This document shows, in pieces, positions 4,861-57,880 of a stretch of 64,000 bases of DNA. A model generated the notes under the pieces. The model did no database searches. It was not told the origin of the DNA and saw only the letters and a program-made list of their open reading frames with translations. The translations under genes and the position numbers were made by a program. Positions within the stretch are counted from its first letter, which is position 1. Every line of letters begins with the position of its first letter. The DNA is from Curtobacterium sp. MCLR17_036 (GTDB lineage Bacteria; Actinomycetota; Actinomycetes; Actinomycetales; Microbacteriaceae): the NCBI RefSeq assembly GCF_003234445.2, contig NZ_CP126269.1, positions 2,294,001 through 2,358,000 of the forward strand, read 5' to 3'.

Positions 4861-4985
4861 GGGCACCGGGCGGTGCCGTGCCGGTGGGGTATGCCGGTAC
4901 CGGTGCCGTGCGGTCCGTTCGCTGTGCCGGTGCGGTGTGCCGGTGCCGTGCGCCGGTGCCGTGCACGTGCGGGCGGCGCTGCCGT

Positions 4986-5206
4986 GCGACGAGATCGACG
5001 TCGCACGAGACCGACGATGTCGCAGCCGCCGATGCCCCTCGCACGGCGCGACAAAGTCGACGTCGCACGACCTCGACGATGTCGCAGCCCCCGCCAGCCG
5101 CGCTGAGCGCGACAACCTCGACGTCGCACGACCTCGACGATGTCGCAGCTCCGCCAGCCGCGCCGAGCGCGACGACACCGCCGTCGCACGACACCGACGT
5201 CGTCGC
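4986..5206 (+). repeat. tandem array of four ~61-bp units, each with a 39-bp imperfect palindrome
   Basis: This 390-bp gap separates two convergent glycosyltransferase genes and has no credible gene. Four copies of a 38-39-bp imperfect palindrome start at 4986, 5048, 5109 and 5169 (periods 62, 61, 60). Each begins GCGACA or GCGACG, has GTCGCACGA in the middle and ends TGTCGCA or similar. The preceding stretch (about 4870-4975) is a degenerate run of GGTGCCGTGC-like units. Each palindrome can form a hairpin on either strand, so a bidirectional terminator role is plausible. Confidence 0.8.
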
Positions 5207-5253
5207 GCCAGCCCGCGCACCATCCCTGCGCGCCGCGGCCCCGCGCGCGGAGG

Positions 5254-6561
5254 TCAGCCCCGCCGCGCCCGTCCGACCAGGTACCGCCACGGACCGCCGA
5301 GCGCCGCGAGGAGCTCCACGCGCTGCAGCCCGGCGGTGGCCTGCCGGAACTCGTCGTCGACGGGCCAGCCGCCCACGGTGTCCACCGCGACGGGCTCGCC
5401 GGCACCGGCCGTCCCCTGCCCGAGCGCCCCGAGCTGCCGCAGCGCGCCGACGGCCCGACGGAGCACCGCCACCGCCGTCCGCGGTCGCAGCACGAGCTTC
5501 GTCACCCACGCCCCGAGACCGGTGCCGTAGCCGAGCGCCTGGGACCGCAGGGCGGCGCGGTCGGAGCGGTGTCGGTGCCAGACCACCGCGGCGGGCTCCA
5601 CGGCGAGCGCCCCGCCGGAGAACAGCACCCGCGTGAACAGGTCCGGGTCCTCGCCGGCGCGGGCGGGGGTCCCCGGGCCGAGGGCGACGTCGAAGCCGCC
5701 CAGGGCGAGCGCGGCCGAGCGCCGCAGCGACATGTTCGCCCCGGTGCCGAACGCGCCGACCGAGAACGGGAAGAGCGGCAGGTCGGCCGGCGGCGCCGAG
5801 GTCCGGAAGACCCGGCGGTCGGTGTTCCGCGCCCAGGTCACCCGCTCGTCGAAGTACCGCTGGGTGGGCGTGCGCAGTTCCCCGCTCGGCACGAGCCCGG
5901 TGACGCAAACGACGTCCGCGTCGCGGGCGTACGCCTCGGCGAGCGCCGCGAGCCAGAGGCGGTCGACGACCACGTCGTCGTCGACGAAGGCGACCACGGC
6001 TCCGGAGGCGACGGCGAGACCGGCGTTCCGTGCGCGTGAGACGCCGGGTCGGGCCTCCAGGACGTAGCGCAACCGGGGGTCGTCGAACGACGCGACCACG
6101 TCGCGGGTGGCGGTGGTCGAGGGCGCGTTGTCGACGACGACGACCTCGAGGTCGTCGTACGCCGAGTCGAGCACCGACCGGACGACGTGACGCACGTCGT
6201 CCGGCCGGTCGCGGGTACCGATGACGACGGAGACGCGGCCGACGGGCGTGCCGGTCGGTGCGGCCGGGAGGCCCGTGGCGCGCAGTGCACGGACGGCCGG
6301 TCCCAGCTCGGCCGGGTCCACCGCCCCCGCTGCGTCGACGGCGACGTCGACGAAGCCGGCGACCTCACGGCCGTCCCGGACGAGGAGCCGTGCGCGGCGG
6401 AAGCCCTCGGCGTCCTGCAGGGCGACGGCGGTCGCGGTGGCCGCCTCCTGCCGGTCGACGGCGCCGACCCAGGCGGCTCCGGCCCACGTCGGGACCCCGG
6501 CTGACGGCATCGCGGGGGTGACGGTGAGCACGCCGCTGACGGTCGCCCGGGGTTCGGTCAT
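5254..6561 (-). CDS. family 2 glycosyltransferase (paralogue of the convergent gene at 3535)
   Basis: Glycosyltransferase of 435 aa. As in its convergent neighbour, an N-terminal region of about 105 residues precedes the catalytic domain. Recognisable segments are VSVVIGTRDRPDDVRHVVRS, LEVVVVDNAPS, GVSRARNAGLAVASGAVVAF and DDDVVVD (acidic metal-binding motif), then AGEDPDLFTRVLFSGGAL. The start at 6561 is supported by a TTGACC-17-GAGCAT promoter whose -10 ends 6 nt before the ATG, predicting a leaderless transcript. The paired, convergent arrangement of two divergent paralogues suggests that they act at different steps of the same polymer. Confidence 0.88.
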   Translation of the reverse strand: MTEPRATVSGVLTVTPAMPSAGVPTWAGAAWVGAVDRQEAATATAVALQDAEGFRRARLLVRDGREVAGFVDVAVDAAGAVDPAELGPAVRALRATGLPAAPTGTPVGRVSVVIGTRDRPDDVRHVVRSVLDSAYDDLEVVVVDNAPSTTATRDVVASFDDPRLRYVLEARPGVSRARNAGLAVASGAVVAFVDDDVVVDRLWLAALAEAYARDADVVCVTGLVPSGELRTPTQRYFDERVTWARNTDRRVFRTSAPPADLPLFPFSVGAFGTGANMSLRRSAALALGGFDVALGPGTPARAGEDPDLFTRVLFSGGALAVEPAAVVWHRHRSDRAALRSQALGYGTGLGAWVTKLVLRPRTAVAVLRRAVGALRQLGALGQGTAGAGEPVAVDTVGGWPVDDEFRQATAGLQRVELLAALGGPWRYLVGRARRG

Positions 6562-6567
6562 GCTCCG

Positions 6568-6596
6568 ATGCTCGGGTGGGGGCTCCGGCCGGTCAA
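6568..6596 (-). promoter_or_regulatory. leaderless promoter of the second GT2 gene
   Basis: On the minus strand, TTGACC (6591-6596), a 17-bp spacer and GAGCAT (6568-6573), followed 6 nt later by the ATG. Confidence 0.6.
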
Positions 6597-6765
6597 CGAC
6601 GACCGGGGGCGCGTGCGGCGACGGACGCGCGACTTGCGGTTTGCCGCCAGGTGCCCGGACGGGCGGGCGGAGCGGACCGGGTTCCGCGGTCCGGGCGGCT
6701 CCCGGGCGCTGCCCCTAGGATCGACGACAGGACCGGCGGCAGCACGTCGGGCACGAGGAGGACGC

Positions 6766-6900
6766 ATGTCGCTGGGCCCCACGACCGAGCTCGGCGTCCC
6801 CACCTGCGTCTGCGGCCACGTGCAGGACGCCCACGAGCACTACCGCCCGGGCAGCGACTGCGCACTGTGCGACTGCCCGAGGTTCCGCCGACAGCGCTGA
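6766..6900 (+). CDS. small Cys/His-rich protein, probable zinc-binding
   Basis: A 44-aa protein preceded by a GAGGAG ribosome site and a -10 TAGGAT at 6716-6721. The centre reads CVCGHVQDAHEHYRPGSD and then CALCDCPRF, so five cysteines and three histidines lie within 30 residues, arranged like a small zinc ribbon. Similar short proteins recur in Actinobacteria and have no assigned role as far as I know. It stands alone between two glycosyltransferase genes. Its function is unknown; metal binding is inferred from residue spacing. Confidence 0.75.
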   Translation: MSLGPTTELGVPTCVCGHVQDAHEHYRPGSDCALCDCPRFRRQR

Positions 6901-6955
6901 TCCTCGGGCCCGGTGCGGGAAACCGCCGCTTCACCGCAGTGGCCCCACGGGCGCC

Positions 6956-9381: not shown

Positions 9382-9449
9382 CGGCGGCACGTGGGCGCGC
9401 GTCCGGTAGGGGGCGGCTCGCCAAGCCGCACCGCGCCGAGCACCGACCC

Positions 9450-9797
9450 GGCGCCGAGCGCCCGCACACTGCGCGGGCGCGCAGCGCACGGCACACACCG
9501 CGTCGGCGCCCAGCGCCCGCCGCGCACCATGCCGGCGCCCAGCGCCCGTCGCGCACCGCCTCGGCGCCCACGCCCGTCGCACACCGCGCCGGCGCCCAGC
9601 GCCCAGCGCCCGTCGCACACCGCGCCGCCGCCCAGCGCCCGTCACGCACCGCGCCGCCGCCCAGCGCCCAGCGCCCGTCGCACACCGCGCCGGCGCCCAG
9701 CGCCCGTCACGCACCGTGCCGGCGCCCGGCGCCCGTCACGCACCGTGCCGGCGCTCAGCGCCCGTCACGCACCGTGCCGGCGCTCAGCGCCCGTCAC
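9450..9797 (+). repeat. tandem array of ~29-bp GC-rich units at a convergent junction
   Basis: About ten to eleven imperfect copies of a unit close to GCGCCCAGCGCCCGTCACGC plus ACCGYGCCG fill the gap between the flippase gene and the GH16-like gene. The array runs into the 3' end of the latter: its last residues (RDGR) and stop codon lie within a repeat unit. The gap has no other gene. Such GC-rich units can pair with one another on both strands. Confidence 0.85.
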
Positions 9798-15256: not shown

Positions 15257-15328
15257 CTGGGGTACCTGGACTCGAACCAAGAACGACGGTACCAGAAACC
15301 GCTGTGTTGCCAATTACACCATACCCCA
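15257..15328 (-). tRNA. tRNA-Gln (anticodon CUG)
   Basis: A 72-nt cloverleaf. The acceptor stem is TGGGGTA/TACCCCA, the T loop GGTTCGAGTCC is canonical, and the anticodon loop TTCTGGT gives CUG. The 3' CCA is not encoded. It lies near gltX. Actinobacteria generally charge this tRNA first with glutamate, using a non-discriminating GltX, and then amidate it with GatCAB, so the proximity is functionally suggestive. Confidence 0.95.
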
Positions 15329-28462: not shown

Positions 28463-28510
28463 GACGGACGGGAGGCCCGTGGCGGGGTCGCCACGGGCCT
28501 CCCGTCCGTC
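28463..28510. terminator. 22-bp perfect GGAGGC-core hairpin
   Basis: The arm begins GACGGACGGGAGGCCCGTGG (28463-28484) and its exact complement spans 28489-28510, with the 4-nt loop GGGT. It lies 36 bp past the stop of the small membrane protein gene at 28547 and about 95 bp before serA. It should terminate the upstream minus-strand transcript. The arm is identical to that of the hairpin at 44579. Confidence 0.85.
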
Positions 28511-42362: not shown

Positions 42363-42471
42363 CGCCGGGCGTTGCGCGTCGCGCGTCGCGCGTCGGTGTC
42401 GGGCGTCCCGCGTCGGGGTCGCGGCCCCGGCGTCGGCCCGGCGTCGATCTCGGCGTCGATCTCGGCGTCGA

Positions 42472-43072
42472 GTGAGCAGAAGATGTCGGGTCGGCAAGGC
42501 CCACTCGACATCTTCTGCTCACCAAGGGCGCGGCGATGGGCAGCGGGACGCGACCGAGAACGTTGCCGGCGCCCCCGCATCGAGTGAGCAGAAGATGTCG
42601 GGTCGGCAGGGCCCACTCGACATCTTCTGCTCACCAAGGGCGCGGCGATGGGCAGCGGGGCGGGACCGGGGGCAGCGGGACGGGCAGTCAGGGATCGGGC
42701 GCGACCGGGGGCGTCGGCGACGGCGCCCTGCATCGAGCGAGCAGAAGATGTCGGGTCGGCACGTCCCACTCGACATCTTGTGCTCACCAGGGGCGTGACG
42801 ATGGGCAGCGGGGCGCGACCGGGGGCAGCGGGGCACGCCGTCGGGCATCGGGCGCGACCGGGGGCAGCGGGACGGGCCCGAGAGCGTTGTCGGGCGCCCC
42901 GGCACCGAGTGAGCAGAAGATGTCGGGTCGGCAGGACGCACTCGACATCTTCTGCTCACCATCGGCGGGGCGGTGGGCAGCGGGGCGGGACCGAGAGCGT
43001 TGCCGGGCGCCCCGGCATCGAGTGAGCAGAAGATGTCGGGTCGGCAGGAACCACTCGACATCTTCTGCTCAT
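42472..43072. repeat. array of five ~51-bp palindromic units between corA and the ArsB-like gene
   Basis: Five copies at 42472-42522, 42584-42634, 42737-42787, 42909-42959 and 43022-43072. Each has 17-bp arms GTGAGCAGAAGATGTCG and CGACATCTTCTGCTCAC around a conserved 17-nt loop (GGTCGGCAAGGCCCACT-like). Copy 3 has paired changes in both arms, and copy 5 lacks the last pair. The separators are also related, with GATGGGCAGCGGGGCGGGAC-like segments. A short 12-bp repeat (CGGCGTCGATCT) precedes copy 1. The 760-bp gap has no credible gene. Confidence 0.92.
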
Positions 43073-43122
43073 TGCGCTCGCCGCGACGGGGTGCAGCGCG
43101 GCTCGCCGGGGCGCTCGCGGCG

Positions 43123-44578: not shown

Positions 44579-44626
44579 GACGGACGGGAGGCCCGTGGCG
44601 GATCCGCCACGGGCCTCCCGTCCGTC
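44579..44626. terminator. 22-bp-arm GGAGGC-core hairpin at a convergent junction
   Basis: A perfect 48-bp palindrome. The arm starts GACGGACGGGAGGCCCGTGG and the central GATC forms the loop. It sits between convergent genes ending at 44559 and 44665, so it can terminate both. Its arms are identical base for base to those at 28463-28510. Confidence 0.88.
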
Positions 44627-47483: not shown

Positions 47484-47562
47484 CGCAGCACACCTGTCCC
47501 CGGAACGCGACCACGCGCTCCGGACGTGCCGGTGGTCCGGCACCCGTCGGTACGATCGGCGG

Positions 47563-47868: not shown

Positions 47869-47869
47869 C

Positions 47870-47965
47870 CGGCGCCCGACGCGGTCGGCGGCCCGGCGCC
47901 CGACGCGGTCGGCGGCCCGGCGTCCGACGCGGTCGGCGGGCCGGCATCCGACGCGGTCGGCGGCC
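47870..47965. repeat. four tandem 24-bp units at a convergent junction
   Basis: Four near-identical units of CGGCGCCCGACGCGGTCGGC plus GGCC at 47870, 47894, 47918 and 47942, with single-base changes. The array starts one base after the stop codon of the 101-aa gene and ends about 20 bp before the stop of the lipoprotein gene. Confidence 0.9.
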
Positions 47966-47983
47966 CGGCGACCGCGGCCGCCG

Positions 47984-48628
47984 TCAGTCGTCGGTGTCGA
48001 CCCGGTCGGTCACCACGTCGCCCGAGCCCGCGTCGACCCGCACGCTGTGCTTCGTGCCGGACGCGTCGACGACGTCGCCCTCCCACACGACCGCGCCGCG
48101 GTGGTCGTCGAGACCGATCTCGGTGACCGCGCCGTCGTGCAGGTCCGTCAGGGCGCGCACGGCCCGCTCGACGTCGAGGTCGGCGGCCGCCACGAACCGT
48201 TCGTGCTCGGCACGGTCGTCGGCGTCGGCGGTCTCCTGCTGGGGCGTGCCGACCACCGCGGTGCCGTCAGCGTCCGTGCGCACCTCGTGCTCGGTGCCGT
48301 CCTTCGTGACGACGAGGACCTCGTGGCCCGAGCCGTCCTGCTCCCACTCGACCGCGAGGACCGTGCCCGATCCGACGTCCTCACGCGCGGTCGCGGCGGC
48401 AGCGAGCAGTGCGTCGGTCGACCCGGCGGACGCGGCCGTCGTGCCGCCCGTCGCCGGACCGGTGGCCGGCCCCGAGGTCGCGCCGGCTCCGGCGACCCGG
48501 TCGGTGCGGTCGGCGTCGTCGTCGTCCGACGAGCAGCCGGCGAGGGCGAGGACCGCCGCCACGGGCAGGGCGGCGACCGCGGCGAGGCGGCGGGTGGTGG
48601 ACGTCTGGTGCTGGGTGCGGAAGATCAT
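47984..48628 (-). CDS. PepSY-like lipoprotein of the two-component locus
   Basis: A 214-aa predicted lipoprotein. The signal peptide ends VLALAGCSSDDD (lipobox Cys). After an Ala/Thr/Gly linker come two related beta-alpha-beta modules. One contains TVLAVEWEQDGSGHEVLVVT and the second ERAVRALTDLHDGAVTEIGL, then HRGAVVWEGDVVDASGTKHS, the pattern of PepSY domains. PepSY proteins often lie next to two-component kinases and may inhibit a sensor or protease. I prefer the ATG at 48628, because a -10 CATGCT (48636-48641) ends 7 nt upstream. An ATG at 48640 falls inside that box. Its promoter carries the same regulator box as the kinase operon. Confidence 0.8.
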   Translation of the reverse strand: MIFRTQHQTSTTRRLAAVAALPVAAVLALAGCSSDDDDADRTDRVAGAGATSGPATGPATGGTTAASAGSTDALLAAAATAREDVGSGTVLAVEWEQDGSGHEVLVVTKDGTEHEVRTDADGTAVVGTPQQETADADDRAEHERFVAAADLDVERAVRALTDLHDGAVTEIGLDDHRGAVVWEGDVVDASGTKHSVRVDAGSGDVVTDRVDTDD

Positions 48629-48651
48629 GGGCACGAGCATGTCGGCGCGGT

Positions 48652-48670
48652 GCTGAAGCAGGCCTGAAGC
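48652..48670 (-). promoter_or_regulatory. response-regulator box upstream of the PepSY-like gene
   Basis: Direct repeat GCTGAAGC-AGG-CCTGAAGC (plus-strand reading), period 11 bp, ending 10 bp upstream of the -10 box. It is nearly identical to the box at 50780-50798. The spacing fits two OmpR-type monomers bound head to tail. Confidence 0.72.
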
Positions 48671-48676
48671 CCCCTG

Positions 48677-48751
48677 TTCAGCTGCCGAGCGCTCAGTCGC
48701 CGAGTGCTCAGTCGCCGCGCGTTCAGCCGCCGAGTGCTCAGTCGGCGAGTG
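48677..48751. repeat. five tandem 15-bp units overlapping the kinase 3' end
   Basis: Units CTCAGTCGCCGAGTG and close variants start at 48677, 48692, 48707, 48722 and 48737. The last one contains the stop codon of the histidine kinase gene. Confidence 0.88.
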
Positions 48752-50087
48752 CGATGCGCACGACGAACCGTGCGCCGCCGAGGGGTGCGTCGGTCACCAT
48801 CGCGTCGCCGCCGTGGGCGAGGACGGCGTCGCGCACGATCGCCAGCCCGAGGCCGGCTCCCCCGACGTCGCGGCTCCGGGCGTCGTCGAGGCGGACGAAG
48901 CGCTCGAACACCCGCTCGCGCTCCTGCACGGGCACCCCGGGACCGTCGTCGTCCACCGCGAGCACGGCCTCGCCGCCGCCCGTGCCGAGCGTGACGGCGA
49001 CGCGCGAGGACGCGTGTCGGACGGCGTTGTCGACCAGGTTGCGGACGACCGCGGTGAGGACGCGCTCGTCACCGAGCACGCGAGCGGCCGAGATCCCGGA
49101 ACCGTCGACGCGGACCCCGGCCCTCGCGGTCGTCCGGGCGCGGGCCACGGCGTCGAACGCGAGGTCGTCGAGGTCCACCGGACGTCGCGTGCCGGTGCCG
49201 CCCTCGTCGAGGCGGGAGAGCTCGAGGAGGGCGGCGACGAGGTCCTGCAACCGCACCGCCTCGGACCGCACGACGGCGGAGAGGTCGCGGACGTCGGACC
49301 GGTCGGGGTGCGCGACCGCGACCTCCGCGTGCTGGCGGATCGACGTGATCGGCGACCGCAGCTCGTGCGAGGCGTCGGCGACGAAGCGTCGCTGCGACTC
49401 CGCCGACCGGTCGAGCCGGTCGAGCATGACGTTCATCGTGCTCGCCAGCCGGGCGATCTCGTCGCCCGTGTCCGGCACGTCGACGCGCGCCTCCGGTCGG
49501 GCGGCGCGGATCGCCTCGACCTCGCGCCGCATCCGCTCGACGGGGCGGAGTGACCGTCCGGTCACCGACCAGGTCACCGCCACGAGCAGGAGCACGAGCA
49601 CCGGCACCCCGACGGCCAACAGCACGGTCGCCGTCCGGATCGCCGCGTCGGTCTGCTCGAGCGGGACGCCGTACACCAGCGTCGCCGACCCGGAACCGGG
49701 CAGGTCGACGTCGTCCGCCACCACCAGCCACCGGTCGCCGTCGTCCGACCACGTCGACTCGTCGGCGGTCGGCAGCGGGGCAGGTTCGGTGTCCTCGCCG
49801 TGCGCCAGGACGGCACCGTCCTCCCCCACGACCTGGACGAGCACGTCCTCGGCGTCCCGCACCGCCCCGGCGCCCTCCGACTCCACCCGCGACGACACCT
49901 GTTCGAGCCCCGTCTCTGCTGCCGCACGAACACCGTCGAGCAGGACCAGCCGGAGCACGACGACGAACCCCACCGCACCGACGACCAGCGCGGCGAGCAC
50001 GACGAGTCCGGCGCCGAGCGTGGTGCGCGCCCGGACGGAGCGGAACCGACGTCGTCGGGGCACCGACCGGTCCCCGCGGTCAGCCAC
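48738..50087 (-). CDS. sensor histidine kinase (HAMP, HisKA, HATPase)
   Basis: A 449-aa membrane kinase. One membrane helix at about 22-45 (LGAGLVVLAALVVGAVGFVV), an extracytoplasmic domain of about 110 residues, a second helix (VLLAVGVPVLVLLLVAVTWS), then HAMP, and the H-box DASHELRSPITSIRQHAEVA with the phospho-accepting His. The ATP-binding domain has NLVDNAVRHASS, VDDDGPGVPVQERERVFERF and GGAGLGLAIVRDAV. I take the GTG at 50087, which overlaps the response-regulator stop by 8 bp. The stimulus is unknown. The PepSY-like lipoprotein downstream could modulate the sensor domain from outside. Confidence 0.9.
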   Translation of the reverse strand: MADRGDRSVPRRRRFRSVRARTTLGAGLVVLAALVVGAVGFVVVLRLVLLDGVRAAAETGLEQVSSRVESEGAGAVRDAEDVLVQVVGEDGAVLAHGEDTEPAPLPTADESTWSDDGDRWLVVADDVDLPGSGSATLVYGVPLEQTDAAIRTATVLLAVGVPVLVLLLVAVTWSVTGRSLRPVERMRREVEAIRAARPEARVDVPDTGDEIARLASTMNVMLDRLDRSAESQRRFVADASHELRSPITSIRQHAEVAVAHPDRSDVRDLSAVVRSEAVRLQDLVAALLELSRLDEGGTGTRRPVDLDDLAFDAVARARTTARAGVRVDGSGISAARVLGDERVLTAVVRNLVDNAVRHASSRVAVTLGTGGGEAVLAVDDDGPGVPVQERERVFERFVRLDDARSRDVGGAGLGLAIVRDAVLAHGGDAMVTDAPLGGARFVVRIALAD

Positions 50088-50757
50088 CGTCGGCCGCCAA
50101 CCGGTACCCGGCACCGCGCACGGTCTCCAGCGCGGCGCGCCCGAAGGGGCGGTCGATCTTGCGGCGCAGGTGCCCGACGTACACCTCGACGATGTTCGGG
50201 TCCCCGTCGAAGTCGACGTCCCACACGTTCTCGATGACGTCGCGCTTCGAGCACACCTGCCCGGCCCGTCGCGCCAGGTGTTCGAGCACCGCGAACTCGC
50301 GGCTCGTCAGGTCGACGGGCGTCCCCGCGCGGGTCACCGACCGCGCCGCCGGGTCGACGGCGAGGTCGCCGAGTTCCAGGACCGTCGGACGCTCGCGGGC
50401 GCCGCGGCGGACCAGCGCGCGGAGCCGGGCGACGAGCACGGGGTGGGAGAACGGCTTCGTGACGTAGTCGTCGGCGCCGGCGTCGAGTGCCTCGACCTGG
50501 TCCCACTCGCCGTCCTTCGCCGTGAGCATGAGCACGGGCGTCCAGTCCTGCTCGGCGCGGAGCTCGGCGCAGACCGCCCACCCGCTCAGCCCGGGCATCA
50601 TGAGGTCGAGGACGATCACGTCGTAGCGGAACTCCCGGGCGTGCCACAGGCCGTCGACGCCGTCGTGGGCGACGTCGACCGCCCATCCCTCGGCCTCGAG
50701 GCCGCGACGGACCCCGTCGGCGAGCCGGACCTCGTCGTCGACCACCAGCACGCGCAT
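50080..50757 (-). CDS. OmpR-family response regulator
   Basis: A 225-aa regulator. The receiver domain has the acidic pocket VLVVDDEVRL, the phospho-acceptor Asp in DVIVLDLMMPGLSG (about residue 51) and the conserved Lys in DDYVTKPFSHP. The winged-helix DNA-binding domain includes LTSREFAVLEHLARRAGQVC and VYVGHLRRKIDRPF. First gene of the operon; the kinase follows with an 8-bp overlap. A -10 CAGGAT (50765-50770) ends 7 nt before the ATG. The adjacent direct-repeat box points to autoregulation. Confidence 0.93.
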   Translation of the reverse strand: MRVLVVDDEVRLADGVRRGLEAEGWAVDVAHDGVDGLWHAREFRYDVIVLDLMMPGLSGWAVCAELRAEQDWTPVLMLTAKDGEWDQVEALDAGADDYVTKPFSHPVLVARLRALVRRGARERPTVLELGDLAVDPAARSVTRAGTPVDLTSREFAVLEHLARRAGQVCSKRDVIENVWDVDFDGDPNIVEVYVGHLRRKIDRPFGRAALETVRGAGYRLAADGG

Positions 50758-50779
50758 GGCGACGATCCTGCCGTGCGCC

Positions 50780-50798
50780 GCTGAAGCAGGGCTGAAGC
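50780..50798 (-). promoter_or_regulatory. response-regulator box upstream of the two-component operon
   Basis: Direct repeat GCTGAAGC-AGG-GCTGAAGC (period 11 bp), ending 9 bp upstream of the -10 box at 50765-50770. The matching box lies in front of the PepSY-like gene at 48652. Confidence 0.75.
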
Positions 50799-50809
50799 GT
50801 CCGGTCGGC

Positions 50810-51022
50810 TCAGACGAACAGCAGGATGCCCGCGAGGATCGACGCCACGGCGATCGCCAGCGCAACGAGCAGCAGGACGAGGTGCACCGTGTAGAAGGTC
50901 GTCGGCTTGCCCGCGGCGTCGCGGGCCCGGGTGTCGTTCGCCACGCGCTGGAAGAAGCGGGGCCACGTGATGACGTTGAAGACGGCACCGAGGAACAGGA
51001 CGACTGCGGCGAAGACGAGCAC
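50810..51022 (-). CDS. small membrane protein, SCO4848-like
   Basis: A 70-aa protein with two membrane helices (VFAAVVLFLGAVFNVITWPR and VHLVLLLVALAIAVASILAG) joined by a polar loop RVANDTRARDAAGKPTTFYT. The pattern resembles the small SCO4848 family of Actinobacteria, whose role is unknown. The GTG start at 51022 follows a TAGACT -10 box by 6 nt, so it is probably leaderless. Confidence 0.68.
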   Translation of the reverse strand: MLVFAAVVLFLGAVFNVITWPRFFQRVANDTRARDAAGKPTTFYTVHLVLLLVALAIAVASILAGILLFV

Positions 51023-51103
51023 CGTCCGAGTCTAGACAACGGGGTCGGTGGTGCTCGGCCGCCCCCAACGCGGCCGAGTCCCACCCCCGTCGGACTCAAG
51101 TGT

Positions 51104-51117
51104 GTAGCACTTGCTAC
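51104..51117. promoter_or_regulatory. palindrome and direct repeats between regulator gene and small membrane gene
   Basis: GTAGCA-CT-TGCTAC at 51104-51117 is followed by two copies of GTACACGTCSG, near 51123 and 51170. The 170-bp gap has no gene. The elements lie upstream of the SCO4848-like gene and immediately downstream of the HTH gene, so they could be operators for that regulator. This is inference. Confidence 0.4.
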
Positions 51118-51193
51118 AGACTGTACACGTCCGTGCCGCTGAGGTCGAGGCGCCGCGGCCTCGGAGCGTCGTACACGTCGGATCGACCCGGCG

Positions 51194-51634
51194 TCAGACC
51201 ACCGTGCCGCGCTGGGACTCCTCCTCGAGCACCTCGGCGATGCGCCGGAGCGCCTCGGGCGAGAGCTCCCCGGGGAACGTGCGTGCGGCGAACCCGCTCA
51301 CCCGCGCCGAGCGCAGGGACCGGACGAGGGCGAGCTGGGCACCGATGCGCTCCGGGACGTCGCTGTCCTCGAGCAGGAACCGCTCGTCGACCTCGAAGAA
51401 GCCCGCGAGCAGGCGGAGCAGCTCCGTGTCGCGGTTGCGTCGTCCGTCGCCCGAGATCATGTACGTCCACTTCGCCCGCGACAGCGAACCGCCGTGCGAC
51501 GCGACGTACTCCTCGATCGAGGCGAACGGCACCGGGGCGCCCCGCTGTGACTCCTCGAAGTCGAGCAGCAGGTTCAGCCGTCGTGCCAGTTCGGATGCGT
51601 CGAGGGCACCGCCCTTCGGATCCCGTGGCTCCAT
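51194..51634 (-). CDS. helix-turn-helix transcriptional regulator
   Basis: A 146-aa protein. The helix-turn-helix region lies at about 30-80 (FASIEEYVASHGGSLSRAKW, YMISGDGRRNRDTELLRLLA, GFFEVDERFLL). The layout is like XRE/EspR-type actinobacterial regulators, in which a gene-specific loop separates the helices. A C-terminal helical part of about 50 residues (LALVRSLRSARVSGFAAR) may dimerise. The ATG at 51634 is chosen because GGAGGAG lies 6 nt upstream. The target is unknown. Confidence 0.8.
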   Translation of the reverse strand: MEPRDPKGGALDASELARRLNLLLDFEESQRGAPVPFASIEEYVASHGGSLSRAKWTYMISGDGRRNRDTELLRLLAGFFEVDERFLLEDSDVPERIGAQLALVRSLRSARVSGFAARTFPGELSPEALRRIAEVLEEESQRGTVV

Positions 51635-51711
51635 GTCGGACTCCTCCCCAGCCGCGTGCGTGCACGACATCGTAGCGCGGCACCCCGGCACCGCGCCGAT
51701 ACCCTCGACGG

Positions 51712-52362
51712 GTGAGCCGCTCCTTCCCCGCCACCATCGCCGGCCCGGTGGAGCACGAGATCGTCATCTCGAAGTCACGGTTCATCACCACCGTCGCACC
51801 GGCCCCTGGCGTCGCCGAGGCCGAGGCGGTCATCGCGGACGTGAAGCGTCGGTACTGGGACGCCCGACACAACTGCACCGCGATGGTCACCGGCGTGCTC
51901 GGCGACCAGGCGCGGTCGTCCGACGACGGCGAGCCGTCGGGGACCGCCGGCGTGCCGATGCTCGAGGTCCTGCGCCGCCGCGACCTCACCGACGTCGTCG
52001 CCGTCGTCACCCGGTACTTCGGCGGCGTCAAGCTCGGCGCTGGCGGACTGGTCCGCGCGTACTCGTCGGCCGTCTCGGAGACGCTCGACGCCGCCGACAC
52101 CGTGCGCCGCGAAGCGCTGACCGCCGTGCGCTTCGACGCCGACCACGCAGACGCAGGTCGGCTCGACAACGTCCTGCGCGACTGGGTCCGCCACCACCAC
52201 GCCACACTCGGTCCGACGACGTACGGCCGCGCCGCGACCTTCGAGGTCTGGGTCCCGGCGGACGACCTCGCGGTGCTGACCGCCGACCTGGCCTCGGCGT
52301 CGGGCGGCGCCGTTGAGACCGTCGTCGGCGAGGAGCGGATCGTCGACATCCCGTCGAGCTGA
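51712..52362 (+). CDS. YigZ/IMPACT-family protein
   Basis: A 216-aa protein of the YigZ/IMPACT family. Characteristic segments are EIVISKSRFITTVAPA, RHNCTAMVTGVLGDQARSSD, DGEPSGTAGVPMLEVLRR and VTRYFGGVKLGAGGLVRAYS. The N-terminal UPF0029 domain and a C-terminal EF-G-like domain cover the full length. Its biochemical role is not settled; roles near translation or proline metabolism have been suggested. The GTG at 51712 follows a TACCCT -10 box by 6 nt. Confidence 0.93.
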   Translation: MSRSFPATIAGPVEHEIVISKSRFITTVAPAPGVAEAEAVIADVKRRYWDARHNCTAMVTGVLGDQARSSDDGEPSGTAGVPMLEVLRRRDLTDVVAVVTRYFGGVKLGAGGLVRAYSSAVSETLDAADTVRREALTAVRFDADHADAGRLDNVLRDWVRHHHATLGPTTYGRAATFEVWVPADDLAVLTADLASASGGAVETVVGEERIVDIPSS

Positions 52363-52445
52363 TTCCGGCGGACCACACAGTCCGGGCGTGTCCCACGAGG
52401 GTCCCTGCAGTCTGCGGCCAGCGCCGTCGAGGAGGTCGATGCACT

Positions 52446-52550
52446 TCACGCTCGGGGCTGTACGGTTCCGCCGACGTCGTCGAGCGTGAGTCGTCGCGCC
52501 TGCCCGTGGTGCTGGATCTCAGCGGTGATCGTCTCCACTTCGTCCGTCAC
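52446..52550 (-). CDS. possible 34-aa peptide coupled to the upstream membrane gene
   Basis: A GTG at 52550 with an excellent GAGGAGG ribosome site 5 nt upstream opens a frame of 34 codons reading VTDEVETITAEIQHHGQARR and then LTLDDVGGTVQPRA. It starts 10 bp after the stop of the gene at 52561. No membrane segment, no recognised family. It could be real or a chance frame; the ribosome site is the only positive evidence. Confidence 0.4.
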   Translation of the reverse strand: MTDEVETITAEIQHHGQARRLTLDDVGGTVQPRA

Positions 52551-52560
52551 GGCGCCCTCC

Positions 52561-53184
52561 TCATCCGTCACGCGGCGGAGCCCACCACGTGGGGTCGACG
52601 AACCTCGATCGCCGAAGCGCTCTGACCGCCTGTGCGCGACGCAAGCCGAGAACGATCGCGGTCGCCGAGACCCCGAGGAGCGCCACGGGCAGCACGATGC
52701 GACCGGCAGTGACGTTGCGCGCATCGCGCTGAGCGCGCGTTTCCTCCCGAGCAGCCGACTCCAGGGTCGGTGCACGCAGCGTGCCGACTGCACCGTCTGC
52801 GATCACTCGGGGCTGTTGATCGATCACGACGAGGAACTCTCGCTGCGGTGCGTGGTCGACGGAGGGCGGGAAGCCCCACGTGGACGGTCCGGTCGCTCGC
52901 ATGGTGCGCGCCGGAAGCCCTGCCCGAGCCGGTAGGCGGAGGAGGTAGATCGGTGTCTCCTTTGGTAGCCCAGACGTCGTGCCCGTGTCGACGAGGGCTC
53001 CGACGACCACGGCGGAGCGGTTCGCCGCATCCCGCTCCCGCGCGGCGTGCTCTCGACTCGTCCCAGCGATGGCATCCAAGCTGAACACCGTGATCGGCGC
53101 GACCAGCAGGACCACTCCGAAGACGATCCACAGCGGCCACACCGGGGGCGGCAGTCGTCTTCCGACCGGCGGTGGGAGCGTCAT
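52561..53184 (-). CDS. membrane protein of unknown function, DUF3592-like topology
   Basis: A 207-aa protein with two membrane helices (PLWIVFGVVLLVAPITVFSL near residues 17-36 and IVLPVALLGVSATAIVLGL near 165-185) enclosing an extracytoplasmic domain of about 120 residues without cysteines. This two-helix layout recalls DUF3592-type proteins, but I cannot claim membership. Its ATG overlaps the stop of the large upstream gene (ATGA), so the two are made together and may form a complex. Confidence 0.7.
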   Translation of the reverse strand: MTLPPPVGRRLPPPVWPLWIVFGVVLLVAPITVFSLDAIAGTSREHAARERDAANRSAVVVGALVDTGTTSGLPKETPIYLLRLPARAGLPARTMRATGPSTWGFPPSVDHAPQREFLVVIDQQPRVIADGAVGTLRAPTLESAAREETRAQRDARNVTAGRIVLPVALLGVSATAIVLGLRRAQAVRALRRSRFVDPTWWAPPRDG

Positions 53185-55430
53185 TGCAGCCCGCAGCGTG
53201 CTCGGTCGCAGCGGATGACGAACCCATGGGAACCCTCGTCCCGGTTGTCGGACATCACGCTGGAGACCAGCATCGGCACGTCATCGGCTGTCAGTCCGAT
53301 CGCCAGCGCGCTGCTGCTCTCCCAGATGGGCCCCGGCGGTACGAACCGGGCGATCGTGGCCTCTTGGTGGTCGTCACACCGTGCATCACTGCACGAGACC
53401 AACCCGACGGCACCTCGTTCGTCGTCGCGGGTCGCGATCAGCGGTCGACCTGATCGGTCGATGACGAACGCCGGCGGGGCGTCCGATGACGAAACCGTCG
53501 CGATCTCCCTGTGCGTCGCCGACGAGCACGAGATGTCTGAACAGAACGTCAGCCGTTGCGCATCGACCCCGTGCGTCCGCCCGAGCACGACCGGGTTGCC
53601 GTCTCCGCCGATCGCGACGCGAGCGTCGGGGGCTGCCTCGTACGACCGCGCAGATGCCGCGGGCGGGAACGCCTCAGGGAGGTCGCGCACGACCGGCTCC
53701 GCGCCGTCCGGGTGCATCGACACCACTCGCAGGGACGGCAGCTCCGGCCACGACGACACCGTCTCGGAGACCAGCGACACCACGGCCGTACCGTCCGGTG
53801 CGACGGCGAGGTCCAACCCTTGATCGCCGATGTACGACGGGATCCACGGAAGCGCCACGTGCCGGACCGCGTGCCGCGCGCACGACGGCTCCTGGCAGAA
53901 GACAACGAACAGGTGTGCTCGGGCGTCCGGTTCGCCGCTCCGGGCGATGCCTGCGATGACCGGTCGATGACCATGTGCGGCGATGGCTGAATCGGATACG
54001 TGGTAGTTGCTCTGGTCGCGGTCGACGACCTGCACGGTGGCGAGCGAGGTCCGTCGCCCTGCAGGTCGATCGGCGTCGGTCTCGTCCTCCACTCCGGACG
54101 GTCCGGCGCGTCGCCCGCGCGGCCATGCGTTGTCCTGCGGCTTCTGAGGAGGCTCGAGCTCATCCGGGTGGGAGTGGACGACCTCGAGCTCGAACCGCTC
54201 CGTGGTGTACCGCTCGCCGCGAGGATGCCACTGCACGGTGAGGAGACCGCCGTCACCGGCCGGGCCGATGGCGGAGTTGACCTCGCTGGGACTCACGCCG
54301 GAGCCGACGCCGCATCGTGCTCGCTGACACGAGCGGTAGAGACTCGAGCGTGCCCGCGGCGAGCTGACGACGACCGTTCGATCTCCGACGTCAGCGACAT
54401 CCGCGCCGCCGAGGTCCCCCGTGTCCACGGTCGCGACGCTGTACTGAACCAAGCCGAACGGGTTGCTCGTCACCAGCACCGCGAACACCAGGGCAGGCAC
54501 GAGCAGGACGCCGACCCCGGTGAGACCGTCACGCAGGGGCCGCCGAGCACCCCCGGAGTCCGCCACCACCGGAGCCCGGAGCCGACTCTCCTCGCCGCGT
54601 ACTACTGCCCCGCGTGCAGCGACCGCGACGACGAACACCACCAGCACGGTCACCGCGACGCAGGACCACGCCACCGTCAGGCTGGCGCGCGCCGCCGATG
54701 CCGGGAGGAGCCGCACGAGCAACCAGACACCGATGCCGAGCACCAGCGCCACGGAGGCCGCTCCGACCAGCGCCCGGCGTGGTGACGACGTCGCTTCCAG
54801 CCCGCCTCGGACCACGACGCGTCCCGACGACCAGCCCCGACGCACCGCCTCACCGCGGGGGACGCCCGCGACGACGAGCACCCAGCCGAGCAGGAGCGGC
54901 GCAGCGAGCACCGCGACGACGACCAGCAGCACCAGCACGGCCGCGACGACGACCCGCCCGCCGTCCTGCCACGAGCGCACCACCACCGTCCCGACCGCGA
55001 CCGACACGGCCGCTGCCAGCGCGGCCTCGACGACGAGCCGTCGCTGTCCGAACGTCCATCGCCATGCCGATCGTGGACCGAGCGACTCCTCGTCCGCTCC
55101 GGCGATCATGACCGCCGTCGACGCGGTGGCGCCGAACCCGAACCCCACCACGGCGAGCACCGCGCCGGCGACGACGACCAGCACCGACACCGCCGGCGAC
55201 TCGACGACCGAGAACACACCGTTCGCCAGGACGACACGGCCGTCGCGCACCCCGACGAGCAGTGCCACCCCTGCGAGGAGCGCTCCGACAACAACGGGAG
55301 CTGCGAACGCCACCACGGCACCGCCGCCGCCCCAGGCGATCGACGGCACCACTGGTGGGCCGTACTGCTTCCGCTTCGCAGACTCGTTCGGCGTGATCAC
55401 GCCTCCGACGTTCTGTGCACTCTCGACCAT
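53181..55430 (-). CDS. membrane protein with extracytoplasmic CX4C-repeat domain
   Basis: A 749-aa protein of unknown function. The first 330 residues hold about eight membrane segments (for example WGGGGAVVAFAAPVVVGALL). A last helix near GVLLVPALVFAVLVTSNPFG leads into an outside domain of about 400 residues. That domain contains five CX4C pairs at roughly regular spacing, in CQRARC, CQEPSC, CSDISC, CSDARC and CDRARC; three are followed by a short strand such as HREIATV or HQEATIARF. I read these as beta-propeller blades, each closed by a disulfide. The ATG at 55430 has a GGAGGGG site; an upstream ATG at 55460 is possible. It is coupled to the gene at 52561. Its AT content looks slightly higher than its surroundings. 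Confidence 0.75.
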   Translation of the reverse strand: MVESAQNVGGVITPNESAKRKQYGPPVVPSIAWGGGGAVVAFAAPVVVGALLAGVALLVGVRDGRVVLANGVFSVVESPAVSVLVVVAGAVLAVVGFGFGATASTAVMIAGADEESLGPRSAWRWTFGQRRLVVEAALAAAVSVAVGTVVVRSWQDGGRVVVAAVLVLLVVVAVLAAPLLLGWVLVVAGVPRGEAVRRGWSSGRVVVRGGLEATSSPRRALVGAASVALVLGIGVWLLVRLLPASAARASLTVAWSCVAVTVLVVFVVAVAARGAVVRGEESRLRAPVVADSGGARRPLRDGLTGVGVLLVPALVFAVLVTSNPFGLVQYSVATVDTGDLGGADVADVGDRTVVVSSPRARSSLYRSCQRARCGVGSGVSPSEVNSAIGPAGDGGLLTVQWHPRGERYTTERFELEVVHSHPDELEPPQKPQDNAWPRGRRAGPSGVEDETDADRPAGRRTSLATVQVVDRDQSNYHVSDSAIAAHGHRPVIAGIARSGEPDARAHLFVVFCQEPSCARHAVRHVALPWIPSYIGDQGLDLAVAPDGTAVVSLVSETVSSWPELPSLRVVSMHPDGAEPVVRDLPEAFPPAASARSYEAAPDARVAIGGDGNPVVLGRTHGVDAQRLTFCSDISCSSATHREIATVSSSDAPPAFVIDRSGRPLIATRDDERGAVGLVSCSDARCDDHQEATIARFVPPGPIWESSSALAIGLTADDVPMLVSSVMSDNRDEGSHGFVIRCDRARCGLQ

Positions 55431-55815
55431 GAACGTGTTCCCCTCCAGACCAGCGGTCATCCTCGCAGGACGGACGTGTCATGTCCAGGGTTCTACATTT
55501 CAATGGCACGGGCCGCACTTGCAAGCCTCGAAGCATCACTTCGCTCCACGTTGCAGCCCCCGCCACTGCCCGGTTCGACGGCTGCCGGTGAGCGCGCACC
55601 TTCCTCATGTCGCCGTCTCCGAACGAGGCGGTCATCACCGCGGCTCCACGGGCCAGGCCGCGACGCCCGTGACGAGGGTCCGCCATCGGCATGGCGCGGT
55701 GTCATCGAGCCCGCCGTCGACGAGGGACAGGCTGCAAGGAGCCCCCGGACCGAATCGACCGACTCGTGCGGCCCGGGCGTGTCCCGCCCTGACGACCGTC
55801 ACTCCCCCGGAACGC
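55431..55815. other. non-coding gap upstream of the CX4C membrane protein; nothing clear
   Basis: About 385 bp. Frames on both strands run into the tRNA-Lys gene and show no family features. On the minus strand a TTGCAA and a TAGAAC occur near 55490-55530 but with poor spacing, so the promoter is not clear. Confidence 0.4.
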
Positions 55816-55850
55816 ACGAACGCCCCGACTCGATGAGCCGGGGCGTTCGT
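55816..55850 (-). terminator. terminator of tRNA-Lys
   Basis: A perfect 12-bp stem ACGAACGCCCCG/CGGGGCGTTCGT with an 11-nt loop, 7 bp past the tRNA 3' end. Confidence 0.88.
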
Positions 55851-55857
55851 CCTGCGG

Positions 55858-55930
<73 letters not shown>

Positions 55931-56025
55931 ATGTTCCGGCTTCCGTGCCGCAACGGGAATCAACAATAGCATGGGTTTCGCGCGCTCACGACCACTCGTG
56001 GGCACACGATCCGAACAGGAGCACC

Positions 56026-56496
56026 ATGACCGACCGTCTCGCCGCCGGCGACACCGCCCCCGACTTCACGCTGCCCGACCAGGACGGCGTCGAGCACTCG
56101 CTCGCCGACCTGCGCGGCCGCAAGGTCATCGTGTACTTCTACCCGGCGGCGTCGACCCCGGGGTGCACCACCGAGGCCTGCGACTTCCGCGACAACATGT
56201 CGTCGCTGCAGGCAGCCGGCTACGAGGTGCTCGGCGTCTCGAAGGACGAGCAGGCGAAGCTCAAGGACTTCCAGCACGAGCAGGCCCTGACGTTCCCGCT
56301 GCTGAGCGACCCCGACCTCGCCGTGCACAGGGCGTACGCCGCCTGGGGCGAGAAGAACAACTACGGCAAGATCGTCACCGGCACGATCCGCTCGACGATC
56401 GTCGTCGACGAGCAGGGCGCCGTGCAGCTGCCGCTCTACAACGTGAAGGCCACCGGGCACGTGGCGAGCCTGCGGAAGAAGCTCGGCCTGGTCTGA
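56026..56496 (+). CDS. bcp: thioredoxin-dependent peroxiredoxin, Bcp/PrxQ type
   Basis: A 156-aa atypical 2-Cys peroxiredoxin removing hydroperoxides. The active-site segment ASTPGCTTEACDFRDNMSSL has the peroxidatic cysteine and the resolving cysteine five residues later, the alpha-2 PrxQ arrangement. N-terminal GDTAPDFTLPDQDGVEHSLA and VIVYFYPAASTPG are typical. The ATG has an ACAGGA ribosome site. It is followed by a very strong terminator hairpin. Confidence 0.95.
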   Translation: MTDRLAAGDTAPDFTLPDQDGVEHSLADLRGRKVIVYFYPAASTPGCTTEACDFRDNMSSLQAAGYEVLGVSKDEQAKLKDFQHEQALTFPLLSDPDLAVHRAYAAWGEKNNYGKIVTGTIRSTIVVDEQGAVQLPLYNVKATGHVASLRKKLGLV

Positions 56497-56507
56497 GGAC
56501 CGGCCAC

Positions 56508-56558
56508 GCACTGGAGGCCCGGTGCCGGTTCCGAGAACCGGCACCGGGCCTCCAGTGC
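56508..56558. terminator. 24-bp perfect GGAGGC-core hairpin at a convergent junction
   Basis: Arms begin GCACTGGAGGCCCGGTGCCG (56508-56531) and pair without mismatch to 56535-56558 across a 3-nt loop. It lies between convergent genes ending at 56496 and 56640, and is the longest of the five GGAGGC-core hairpins. Confidence 0.88.
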
Positions 56559-56639
56559 GCTGCCTGCAGACCGCCCTCGCAGGCTCGGCCGGCGCTGGCG
56601 CCGCGCGCCGCTGGCGCGTCGCCCCGTGCGGGGCGCGCG

Positions 56640-57062
56640 CTACTCCGCCGGGTGCGCGAGCGCGGCGGTCACCGACCGCGACAGCACGAGCGTGATGCCC
56701 AGCAGGGCCGGCAGGAGCAGGAGCCACCCGATCGCCGGCACGCGGAAGACGCCCTGGAACGCACCGATCGCGATCGCGCCCTGCAGGACCTGCCAGACGA
56801 TGATCCCGGACCGGACCCAGGCGCGACGCTGCCACAGGCCGTTCAGCAGGGCGCCGAGCCACAGCGCGGCGACGGCGGCCAGGATCGTCAACGCGATCCC
56901 CGACGCCAGGCTCGTCGCCGGCGCCACGACAAGTTCGACGACGAGCACGACCGTCACGACGACGAGCGCGAGGAACTCGAGACCGACCACGACGAGCAGG
57001 CCGATCAGGGCCGGGGACCGTCGCTCGGGGCGGCCGACCTCGGTCGGGGTGTCGTCGTGCAC
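56640..57062 (-). CDS. four-helix membrane protein, function unknown
   Basis: A 140-aa protein with four hydrophobic segments (ALIGLLVVVGLEFLALVVVT, SGIALTILAAVAALWLGALL, SGIIVWQVLQGAIAIGAF and GWLLLLPALLGITLVLSRSV). The GTG at 57062 is chosen because GGAGGA lies 5 nt upstream; an upstream ATG at 57083 lacks this. It is divergent from whiB1 and shares a 260-bp upstream region with it. No family name can be given. Confidence 0.75.
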   Translation of the reverse strand: MHDDTPTEVGRPERRSPALIGLLVVVGLEFLALVVVTVVLVVELVVAPATSLASGIALTILAAVAALWLGALLNGLWQRRAWVRSGIIVWQVLQGAIAIGAFQGVFRVPAIGWLLLLPALLGITLVLSRSVTAALAHPAE

Positions 57063-57321
57063 AGTGATCCTCCAGCATCGCAACCCTTGATTTGGCCCTA
57101 TCAGTATGGAACGATATTGGAGGTCGTTTGGACGGCACGATGTGGTGTGCGTCTCCCGTGGTTCGTCGCTCCTCCCCCGAGCGTCACGCGGGCGTCAGAC
57201 TCGCTTCCTGCGGACTCCTCCCCACAGTTGTCCCGTCATGCCGCATGCATGTCAGCGTTCCGATCCCCCGAACCACGGCCCCGGCCTGCCGTTCGAGCAT
57301 CGACATCAAGGAGCACCACAC

Positions 57322-57570
57322 ATGGACTGGCGTGACAAGGCAGCCTGCCTCACCGCGGACCCCGAGCTCTTCTTCCCCGTCGGGAACACCGGGCCCGCCG
57401 TCGACCAGATCGAGAAGGCCAAGTCGGTCTGTGCTCGTTGCACGGTCACCGAGATGTGCCTGCAGTACGCGCTCGAGAACAACCAGGACTCCGGTGTCTG
57501 GGGCGGCCTGAGCGAGGACGAGCGTCGTGCGCTGAAGCGTCGCGCCGCTCGCGCCCGCCGCGCTTCCTGA
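57322..57570 (+). CDS. whiB1: WhiB-family Fe-S transcription factor, WhiB1-like
   Basis: An 82-aa protein with the four [4Fe-4S] cysteines (AACLTAD, then SVCARCTVTEMC), the GVWGG turn, and a basic C-terminal tail RRALKRRAARARRAS for DNA binding. Size, N-terminus MDWRDKAACL and position next to pdtaS match WhiB1, the essential nitric-oxide-responsive factor of mycobacteria. A long 5' region (57063-57321) suggests complex control; I see no firm promoter in it. A terminator follows at 57592. Confidence 0.95.
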   Translation: MDWRDKAACLTADPELFFPVGNTGPAVDQIEKAKSVCARCTVTEMCLQYALENNQDSGVWGGLSEDERRALKRRAARARRAS

Positions 57571-57591
57571 CGCCGCACCACCCGCGCGGCT

Positions 57592-57624
57592 GACGCCCGC
57601 CGTCCCTCCGGGGCGGCGGGCGTC
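57592..57624 (+). terminator. terminator of whiB1
   Basis: Stem GACGCCCGCCG/CGGCGGGCGTC (11 bp) extended by an inner CCC/GGG, 21 bp past the stop codon. Confidence 0.82.
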
Positions 57625-57654
57625 GTCGTGTGCGGGGGGGGCGTGGTCGTGTTG

Positions 57655-57800
57655 GCTTGCAGGCGCGGCGCGCGGCGCGCGGCGCGCGGCGGTAGCGGCG
57701 CACGACCACAGTGCGTTCGAACCGCGCGATGGCGTGGCGCGAGTGCACTGTGGTTGTGCGGCGTGCGGCGTGCGGCGGCGAGGCGCGGCGCGCCCCGGTG
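57655..57800. repeat. GC-rich repeat run and long inverted repeat at the whiB1/pdtaS junction
   Basis: A run of GGCGCGC-type units (about 57663-57690) is followed by a 17-bp arm GCGCACGACCACAGTGC (57698-57714). Its imperfect complement GCACTGTGGTTGTGCGG is at 57745-57761, then GCGTGCGGC repeats follow. No gene lies in the 256 bp between the whiB1 terminator and the pdtaS stop. Confidence 0.75.
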
Positions 57801-57880
57801 CCGTCGTCGCGCCCCGAGGAGTCGGGGCGCGATGTCCGTGCAGGGGCGCGGACCGTCCGGCCTCCGGTGCCCGGGCGGGG

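Follow-up and report, generated by a model that had tools for sequence, protein, structure and literature searches.

Stem-loops in bacterial genomes are known to prefer the ends of genes. A survey from 2006 found that all the bacteria it studied, three high-GC Gram-positives among them, favour stem-loops in convergent over divergent spacers and that in unidirectional spacers stem-loops favour the 50 bp after stop codons (PMC1590033). Convergent spacers have been called safe sites for repetitive extragenic palindromes (REPs), since two gene ends recruit no regulators (PMC1525189). REPs with a GTAG or CGTC tag were located mainly in convergent and unidirectional spacers, near 3′ ends (PMC3733652, 2013); that paper contains no word starting with 'actinobact', though it mentions untagged REP-like sequences in M. 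tuberculosis. Here we describe repeats at gene ends in a stretch of 64,000 nucleotides (the window) from the actinobacterium Curtobacterium sp. MCLR17_036, positions 2294001-2358000 of a single-contig genome of 3,635,022 bp. A first-pass annotation of the window had reported structured repeats at its convergent gene junctions, almost without exception, and had suggested that they act as collision or termination zones. The Curtobacterium repeats proved to be a genus-specific version of the hairpin repeats known in many bacteria, in fast-changing families. The preference of stem-loops for gene 3′ ends, and hence for convergent gaps, is already known; what appears to be new are the families specific to this genus and the way they are exchanged at terminator positions. 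Whereas PMC1590033 dealt with generic stem-loops, the present analysis concerns dispersed families, a two-end model and a comparison of turnover. No description of such elements in Curtobacterium was found in a limited literature collection, judged by titles and abstract openings.

The repeats probably mark gene 3′ ends in general, and not convergence as such, and do so in three layers: terminator-like hairpins, dispersed palindromes of fixed span and local tandem arrays. Hairpins of the first layer, comprising class A (described below) and similar unclassified hairpins about 20-35 nt after stops, are most likely orientation-independent terminators or 3′-end stabilisers. The second layer (class B of 51 bp, class C mostly of 55 or 56, class H of 60, class F and others) would be REP-like elements without a known transposase that copy themselves into 3′-end spacers, where insertion would damage no promoter and where a dispersed palindrome could substitute for the resident terminator hairpin. 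The third layer, the local tandem arrays, may arise by neutral expansion, through slippage and unequal recombination, in these same spacers, which are under weak constraint.

Genome-wide statistics come from 59 stretches of 20 kb, spaced evenly over the rest of the chromosome (a sixtieth overlapped the window and was left out); the coding share of this sample is 86%. Genes were called with our own caller, supplemented by a second pass for genes with unusual codon use, on which it is weak. Gaps of 40-1000 nt were counted as positive at a palindrome score of at least 12 or a tandem score of at least 25. Of the convergent gaps 72 of 119 held a palindrome, compared with 7 of 169 divergent and 92 of 363 co-directional ones; tandem repeats were present in 35, 3 and 31 of these gaps, respectively. 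After stratification by length the odds ratios for convergent gaps were 43 against divergent and 4.2 against co-directional gaps for palindromes, and 41 and 5.4 for tandem repeats. Equal palindrome density in length-matched gaps, named in the first-pass annotation as the outcome that would speak against its pattern, was not what we observed.

This enrichment could be explained by convergence itself, if collisions of transcribing polymerases select for strong terminators acting in both directions or cause repeats to expand at the meeting point. We therefore used a two-end model, which counts the gene 3′ ends in a gap: two if it is convergent, one if co-directional and none if divergent. Among gaps of at least 100 nt the number of hairpins per 3′ end was 0.483 in 87 convergent and 0.481 in 216 co-directional gaps (95% interval of the difference -0.14 to 0.15). 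Convergent gaps of this length with none, one and two or more hairpins numbered 33, 34 and 20, and two independent co-directional ends predict 32.0, 33.2 and 21.8. With an equal rate per 3′ end, convergence or collision is not needed as the cause of hairpins in these gaps. Moreover, 54 of the 185 convergent junctions in the sample, at less than 30 nt, leave no space for repeats, so that 'almost without exception' does not extend to the genome, where only the 72 of 119 gaps given above hold a strong palindrome. Having two 3′ ends and lacking a promoter, convergent gaps would be where repeats show most. This adds a quantitative reason to the known preference, with convergence having no effect on hairpins once gaps reach 100 nt.

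The agreement with the two-end model was not complete. When all gaps of at least 40 nt were taken, hairpins per 3′ end were 0.429 in convergent and 0.320 in co-directional gaps (95% interval of the difference 0.007 to 0.219). Palindromes in convergent gaps of 40-100 nt exceeded the prediction (18 seen, 5.0 predicted), perhaps because operons contain many of the short co-directional gaps, and so did tandem arrays in convergent gaps of 100-400 nt (26 seen, 11 predicted). These excesses, together with the enrichment at matched length and the finding below that convergent gaps diverge fastest between strains, favour convergence as the driver. Against it stand the equal hairpin rate, the fit to two independent ends, the many junctions without room and a convergent junction that lacks its array in most relatives (below), and we consider it distinctly unlikely. 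The earlier interpretation is thus partly supported: repeat expansion tolerated where no promoter lies agrees with the excess of tandem arrays and with convergent gaps outpacing fourfold-degenerate sites, but convergence is unneeded for the hairpins.

Position within gaps also pointed to gene ends. In co-directional gaps 99 of 123 hairpins were nearer the upstream stop (median 33 nt; 21 nt for class A), and 14 lay within 30 nt of the next start. The window itself contains a class A hairpin in a co-directional gap (28463..28510), the same element without convergence. Of 31 strict 51-bp class B elements in the sample and the window, 17 lay in convergent gaps (9 gaps) and 12 in co-directional ones (8 gaps); one was in a divergent gap, one was unassigned and none lay in a called gene. 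The same location rule was seen in a distant relative (G043), with palindromes in 24 of 40 convergent, 3 of 62 divergent and 17 of 116 co-directional gaps. In that genome class B is absent by pattern search, class A is rare and class C is prominent among the best hairpins.

Dispersed families were recognised by k-mers common to several gaps. Class A has a GGAGGC...GCCTCC stem, with a box-to-box span of 32 nt in 78 of 142 inverted pairs; 58 outward control pairs showed no preferred span. In the window it forms a hairpin at 44579..44626 (fold z -9.3), in the gap 44560-44664 between orf63 and MscS, and a variant with a ACTGGAGGC stem at 56507..56559 (fold z -10.4), in the gap 56497-56639 between AhpC and orf140. 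The former matched 52 other places in the own-genome sequence searched, to which all counts of matches elsewhere refer, and the variant 2. We searched 398 genomes of the family (10 of the genus and 388 others), class A by one 19-nt pattern: it was found in 9 of the 10 and 1 of the 388, and class B in 4 and 6, these six having one or two copies each.

Pairs of one short motif in inverted orientation at gene ends, most frequent tail-to-tail, resemble the uptake sequences that serve as genome-wide terminators in Neisseria and Pasteurellaceae (PMC1852404, 2007), and the Curtobacterium hairpins could likewise be paired DNA-uptake motifs. However, uptake-sequence hairpins have enriched T/A tails (PMC1852404), whereas those described here have no U-tract. 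The class A motif GGACGGGAGGC is, besides, nearly confined to spacers, with 97 noncoding and 19 coding copies in the sample. Uptake motifs are expected in genes too, as many single copies, and we rejected this reading, which is extremely improbable, on the rarity of the class A motif in genes.

Class B was identified from the repeat in the convergent gap 42363..43122, between CorA and CitMHS. This gap holds an array of five 51-bp palindromes and filler: unit 1 at 42472..42522 (GTGAGCAGAAGATGTCGGGT ... ACTCGACATCTTCTGCTCAC; fold z -9.0 on the plus and -9.6 on the minus strand), unit 2 at 42584..42634, unit 3 at 42737..42787 (with degenerate ends), unit 4 at 42909..42959 and unit 5 at 43022..43072. 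Its repeats matched 12 other places. Copies were collected from the sample, from a contiguous stretch and from 30 short loci fetched by the window's own variant, and the pattern allowed lengths of 41-60 bp; 56 of 58 copies were exactly 51 bp. The same length was found in 33 of 35 exact pairs, in 11 of 11 in the sister strain G031 and in 4 of 4 in other relatives, indicating two inverted half-sites at fixed spacing. The boxes GTGAGCAG and GTCG hardly change in either arm, whereas positions 9 and 11-13 are variable and covary between the arms: when each of 26 loci contributed a single element, 78 of 104 pairs matched at these four positions, a value reached by none of 2000 shuffles. The genome has 200 class B arms and no copy of the reversed pattern.

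These features bear on the possibility that only ordinary terminators are present, each hairpin, class B included, having evolved independently and a shared mechanism having led to shared sequence. The position after stops and the high stability agree with this, as do the terminators of Streptomyces, which likewise combine weak U-tracts with very stable hairpins (PMC12207403). It is nevertheless highly improbable, since near-identical hairpins occur at unrelated genes, as the 52 matches of the 44560 hairpin show, since a fixed 51 bp spanning a variable centre is no known requirement of terminator function, and since the families are nearly confined to the genus in the family-wide sample.

Other families also have characteristic spans: C1, with GAGATCGCA arms, 55 or 56; a second C motif 53 or 85; class H 60 (4 pairs); class F 22 or 41 in 20 of 28; class E 45 or 64; and class G 51 or 92. 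An element of G043 that resembles class C (L151:6391) carries GCAGAAGATG, the core of the window's class B repeat, inside its arm, which hints that families may exchange arm segments.

Compared with described mobile palindromes, class B is a dispersed multi-copy palindrome outside genes, as classical REPs are. GTAG- and CGTC-tagged REPs are likewise short dispersed palindromes by 3′ ends, and CGTC REPs also have no dedicated transposase; they are, however, 20-40 bp long with an unpaired tag (PMC3733652), whereas class B is 51 bp and untagged. In the 8-nt flanks of class B we found the GTAG tag in 0 of 112 and CGTC/GACG in 4 of 112. REP doublets forming hairpins (REPINs), which are associated with REP-associated tyrosine transposases (RAYTs), consist of two inverted half-sites at preferred spacing that make a hairpin unit, as here, and their tandem clusters, the largest exceeding 700 bp, resemble 42363-43122 (PMC3116915, 2011). 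Unlike REPIN/RAYT systems, no Y1 (RAYT-type) transposase domain (PF01797) was detected in any of 66 genomes of the genus at E 0.001, in a search that was positive in 5 of 14 control genomes. Mobilisation by a RAYT was therefore rejected for this genome and the 66 genomes of the genus searched. Because no Y1 domain was found and the tags are absent or rare, the elements, REP-like in form and place, are neither tagged REPs nor parts of a REPIN/RAYT system. A partner gene flanked by class B was also considered: among the intervals listed, the one examined (L039:3422-6008) holds genes for a LacI-type regulator and a DUF559/MTES_1575 (restriction-endonuclease-like) protein and no transposase. These are genus-specific hairpin families in an actinobacterium without a REP-linked transposase.

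Our gene calls gave nine convergent gaps in the window, the number reported earlier, eight of them with identical coordinates, and 8 of the 9 exceeded all of their own shuffles (10-20 for each gap) in palindrome or tandem score. The first-pass annotation had described five arrays, three single hairpins and one gap without strong structure, an observation partly confirmed here. Tandem arrays are present at 4861, 9382, 42363 (spacings 112-172) and 47869. The array at 4861..5253 has a period of about 61 and a weak hairpin, GCGACA...TGTCGC, in its units (fold z -4.0 when one unit was folded); it is mostly local, with 3 weak matches elsewhere. That at 9382..9783 is a local 29-bp array with 1 weak match elsewhere; its 106-nt stretch 9564-9669 folded no more strongly than shuffles (fold z +0.3). 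The one at 47869..47983 is a local 24-bp array with fold z -0.8 and 3 weak matches elsewhere. The arrays at 9382 and 47869 are thus repetitive but not structured, their palindrome scores also not being above shuffles. Being head-to-tail and not dispersed, such arrays have the form of variable-number tandem repeats (VNTRs), and variation in length was seen at 47869, where the sister strain has 82 nt instead of 115 nt; in relatives this junction measures 6-274 nt and is without the 24-bp array.

The fifth supposed array, 57571-57880, did not stand as such: its tandem score was 16 against 19.5 in shuffles, and it qualifies through palindromes only. It contains instead three separate hairpins, one adjoining the WhiB stop and kept in the genus (57592..57624; fold z -5.3 for 57589-57632), a class H palindrome GCACGACCACAGTGC ... 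GCACTGTGGTTGTGC (57699..57760; fold z -3.7 for 57705-57766) and a class F palindrome CGCGCCCCG ... CGGGGCGCG (57789..57850); repeats of this gap match 16 other places. Single hairpins were found, as reported, at 44560, 56497 and 59950. The last (60001..60055; fold z -7.0 on the plus and -8.8 on the minus strand), in the gap 59950-60078 between the DUF6459 gene (59500-59949, on the left) and SecA, resembles a diverged class B, a label that rests on a short motif, and BLAST found no further copy of it. In 52363..52445 no structure was found, also in agreement with the earlier description (fold z +2.1). The left border of this ninth gap holds; the right one is doubtful, being set by an open reading frame (ORF; 52446-52793, minus strand) without a Pfam match that the codon model did not call. 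If this ORF is discounted the gap extends to 53180, and it may thus be wider than first described. Overall, three kinds of site are mixed in the window: those at 4861, 9382 and 47869 are local tandem arrays rich in GC, those at 44560 and 56497 are terminator-like hairpins with the GGAGGC stem, and those at 42363 and 57571 are dispersed REP-like palindromes, to which the 59950 site probably also belongs.

The junctions were compared in 20 relatives over the SecA region, each junction being readable in part of them; family labels at orthologous junctions were assigned by regular expression and are rough. Among 13 relatives readable between CorA and CitMHS, class B was present in one, the sister strain; the other 12 had 6-230 nt without class B, and convergence there therefore needs no array. 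Between orf63 and MscS class A was found in 16 of 17 genomes, this one included, and class F in one, and the inner stem type showed five states, requiring 7 changes on a four-gene tree. Between AhpC and orf140 class A was present in 15 of 20 genomes and class F in 2, with nothing above threshold in 3. Between WhiB and PdtaS the hairpin adjoining WhiB was recognised in 17 of 21 genomes, in 14 of which it is followed by others (families A, F, H, I, K or unclassified). Of six genomes readable between DUF6459 and SecA, three had class A, one (G007) class A plus B, and this strain and G031 the B-like hairpin. In nine named Curtobacterium records at this junction, which may overlap with the relatives above (two loci of other genera were left out), the GGAGGC hairpin was present in 8, in one of them (L168) with class B adjacent. 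At orthologous junctions one family can thus stand for another, and judging from the sequences compared different families appear to replace one another there.

From the DUF6459/SecA junction we infer an order that may represent steps of a takeover: class A alone (most relatives read), A plus B (G007 and L168) and B-like alone (this species). We put forward only tentatively, as something we rather doubt, that the genus holds a pool of fixed-length mobile hairpins, moved by a non-RAYT enzyme, that would rewrite transcript ends by landing beside a resident terminator and taking over, the old hairpin then being lost. If the hairpins do terminate transcription, Curtobacterium would be a place to watch repeats replace terminators and to seek an enzyme that moves REP-like elements without a RAYT.

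Within the species we compared 305 of 311 orthologous gaps with the sister strain, whose median protein identity is 98.6% (2 gaps were dropped for length and 4 for N). Substitutions amounted to 780 of 7544 sites (10.3%) in convergent gaps, a figure that alignment inside repeats may inflate, 391 of 8138 (4.8%) in divergent gaps, 854 of 17522 (4.9%) in co-directional gaps and 3966 of 51636 (7.7%) at fourfold-degenerate sites. Among gaps of 40 nt or more, indels of 15 nt or longer were found in 14 of 36 convergent, 6 of 51 divergent and 21 of 118 co-directional gaps (P 0.004 against divergent and 0.012 against co-directional). Within convergent gaps, stem sites changed less (188 of 2245) than the remaining sites (562 of 5052). 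When both positions of a stem pair had changed, pairing was restored in 11 of 13 cases in convergent and 3 of 5 in co-directional gaps. The hairpin at 44560 has an identical outer stem in the two strains but an inner stem that is changed in both arms (GTGGCG and GGTGCC types); at genome position ~2370616 GCGCCCCG-type hairpins in this strain correspond to a class H hairpin in G031. Element content by strict patterns differed in 8 of 16 element-holding convergent and 1 of 7 co-directional gaps, some of these differences being pattern-breaking point changes. Bidirectional terminators common to convergent genes were found to be more conserved in Bacillus cereus (PMC5381666), in contrast with the fast-diverging convergent gaps here, although the stems here also change less than the rest.

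Such turnover would be expected if the repeats were purely selfish REP-like elements and slippage products, functionless and surviving only downstream of genes since insertion elsewhere harms. Presence specific to lineages (16 of 66 genomes of the genus contain a 15-mer taken from the class B arm in the window), the fixed element length, the divergence of convergent gaps beyond fourfold sites and the lack of the class B array in 12 of 13 relatives between CorA and CitMHS are all consistent with this. On the other hand, class A keeps its position at orf63/MscS and AhpC/orf140 in the proportions given above, the arms of class B covary, pairing is restored in most double stem changes, and hairpins are placed about 20-35 nt after stops. 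We regard an entirely selfish origin as rather unlikely.

The three-layer reading, which we prefer, assigns a role at transcript ends to the hairpins. Stable GC-rich hairpins do lie soon after stops, at the median distances given above, with fold z of -9 to -10 for class A and for the class B unit at 42472, and bidirectional termination by the junction hairpins is plausible. The closest parallel is with the intrinsic terminators of Streptomyces, which in these GC-rich actinobacteria are also very stable long hairpins with weak U-tracts (PMC12207403, 2025). Those terminators were mapped by RNA 3′ ends and have 3-4 U in the first 10 nt, more than the ~1.6 T in 10 that follow class A hairpins in co-directional gaps here, where the hairpins are known from sequence.

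Besides the two excesses over the two-end model, several points weigh against this reading. The elements themselves alter gap length, and our gene calls are uncurated. In class B, covariation is missing at position 18, and shifting the partner by two columns sometimes gives almost as many pairs (32 against 36 at position 12). Template switching, which perfects quasi-palindromes, is a possible non-selective source of covariation. One-sided stem changes (63) exceed double ones (13), and 6 of the 11 doubles that restore pairing come from two hairpins, so that they are few and clustered. No clean empty site or target duplication was found in alignments of 3 of the 9 gaps with differing content and of 44560; the differences in the aligned gaps were rearranged repeats or a swapped stem. 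Finally, a U-tract was missing, TTT occurring within 8 nt in 4 of 349 hairpin tails, and a scan of 41001-61000 for U-tract terminators found 4, against 3.2 in shuffles; on this chance level canonical U-tract terminators were ruled out in that region.

The draft assembly of G031 has runs of more than 600 N in two convergent gaps, L116:4522-5165 and, probably, L122:11567-12205, and one of the two falls inside a class H hairpin. Palindromes may break assemblies, and drafts would then undercount them. Long 'arrays' with an 8-bp period seen in G031 were discarded after they proved to be N runs of the draft. An Rfam scan of the window returned only rRNA and tRNA; the rRNA genes (5S, 23S, 16S) lie at 17966-23320 on the minus strand and tRNA genes at 15257-15328 and 55858-55930. 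An ORF of 759 amino acids at 53181-55460 (minus strand) has a third-position GC of 0.83, against 0.94 for the gene 5254-6561, and no Pfam match. None of the stretches from the other 19 relatives matched it, and the sister strain has a homologue with 94% identity; it is possibly an acquired gene.

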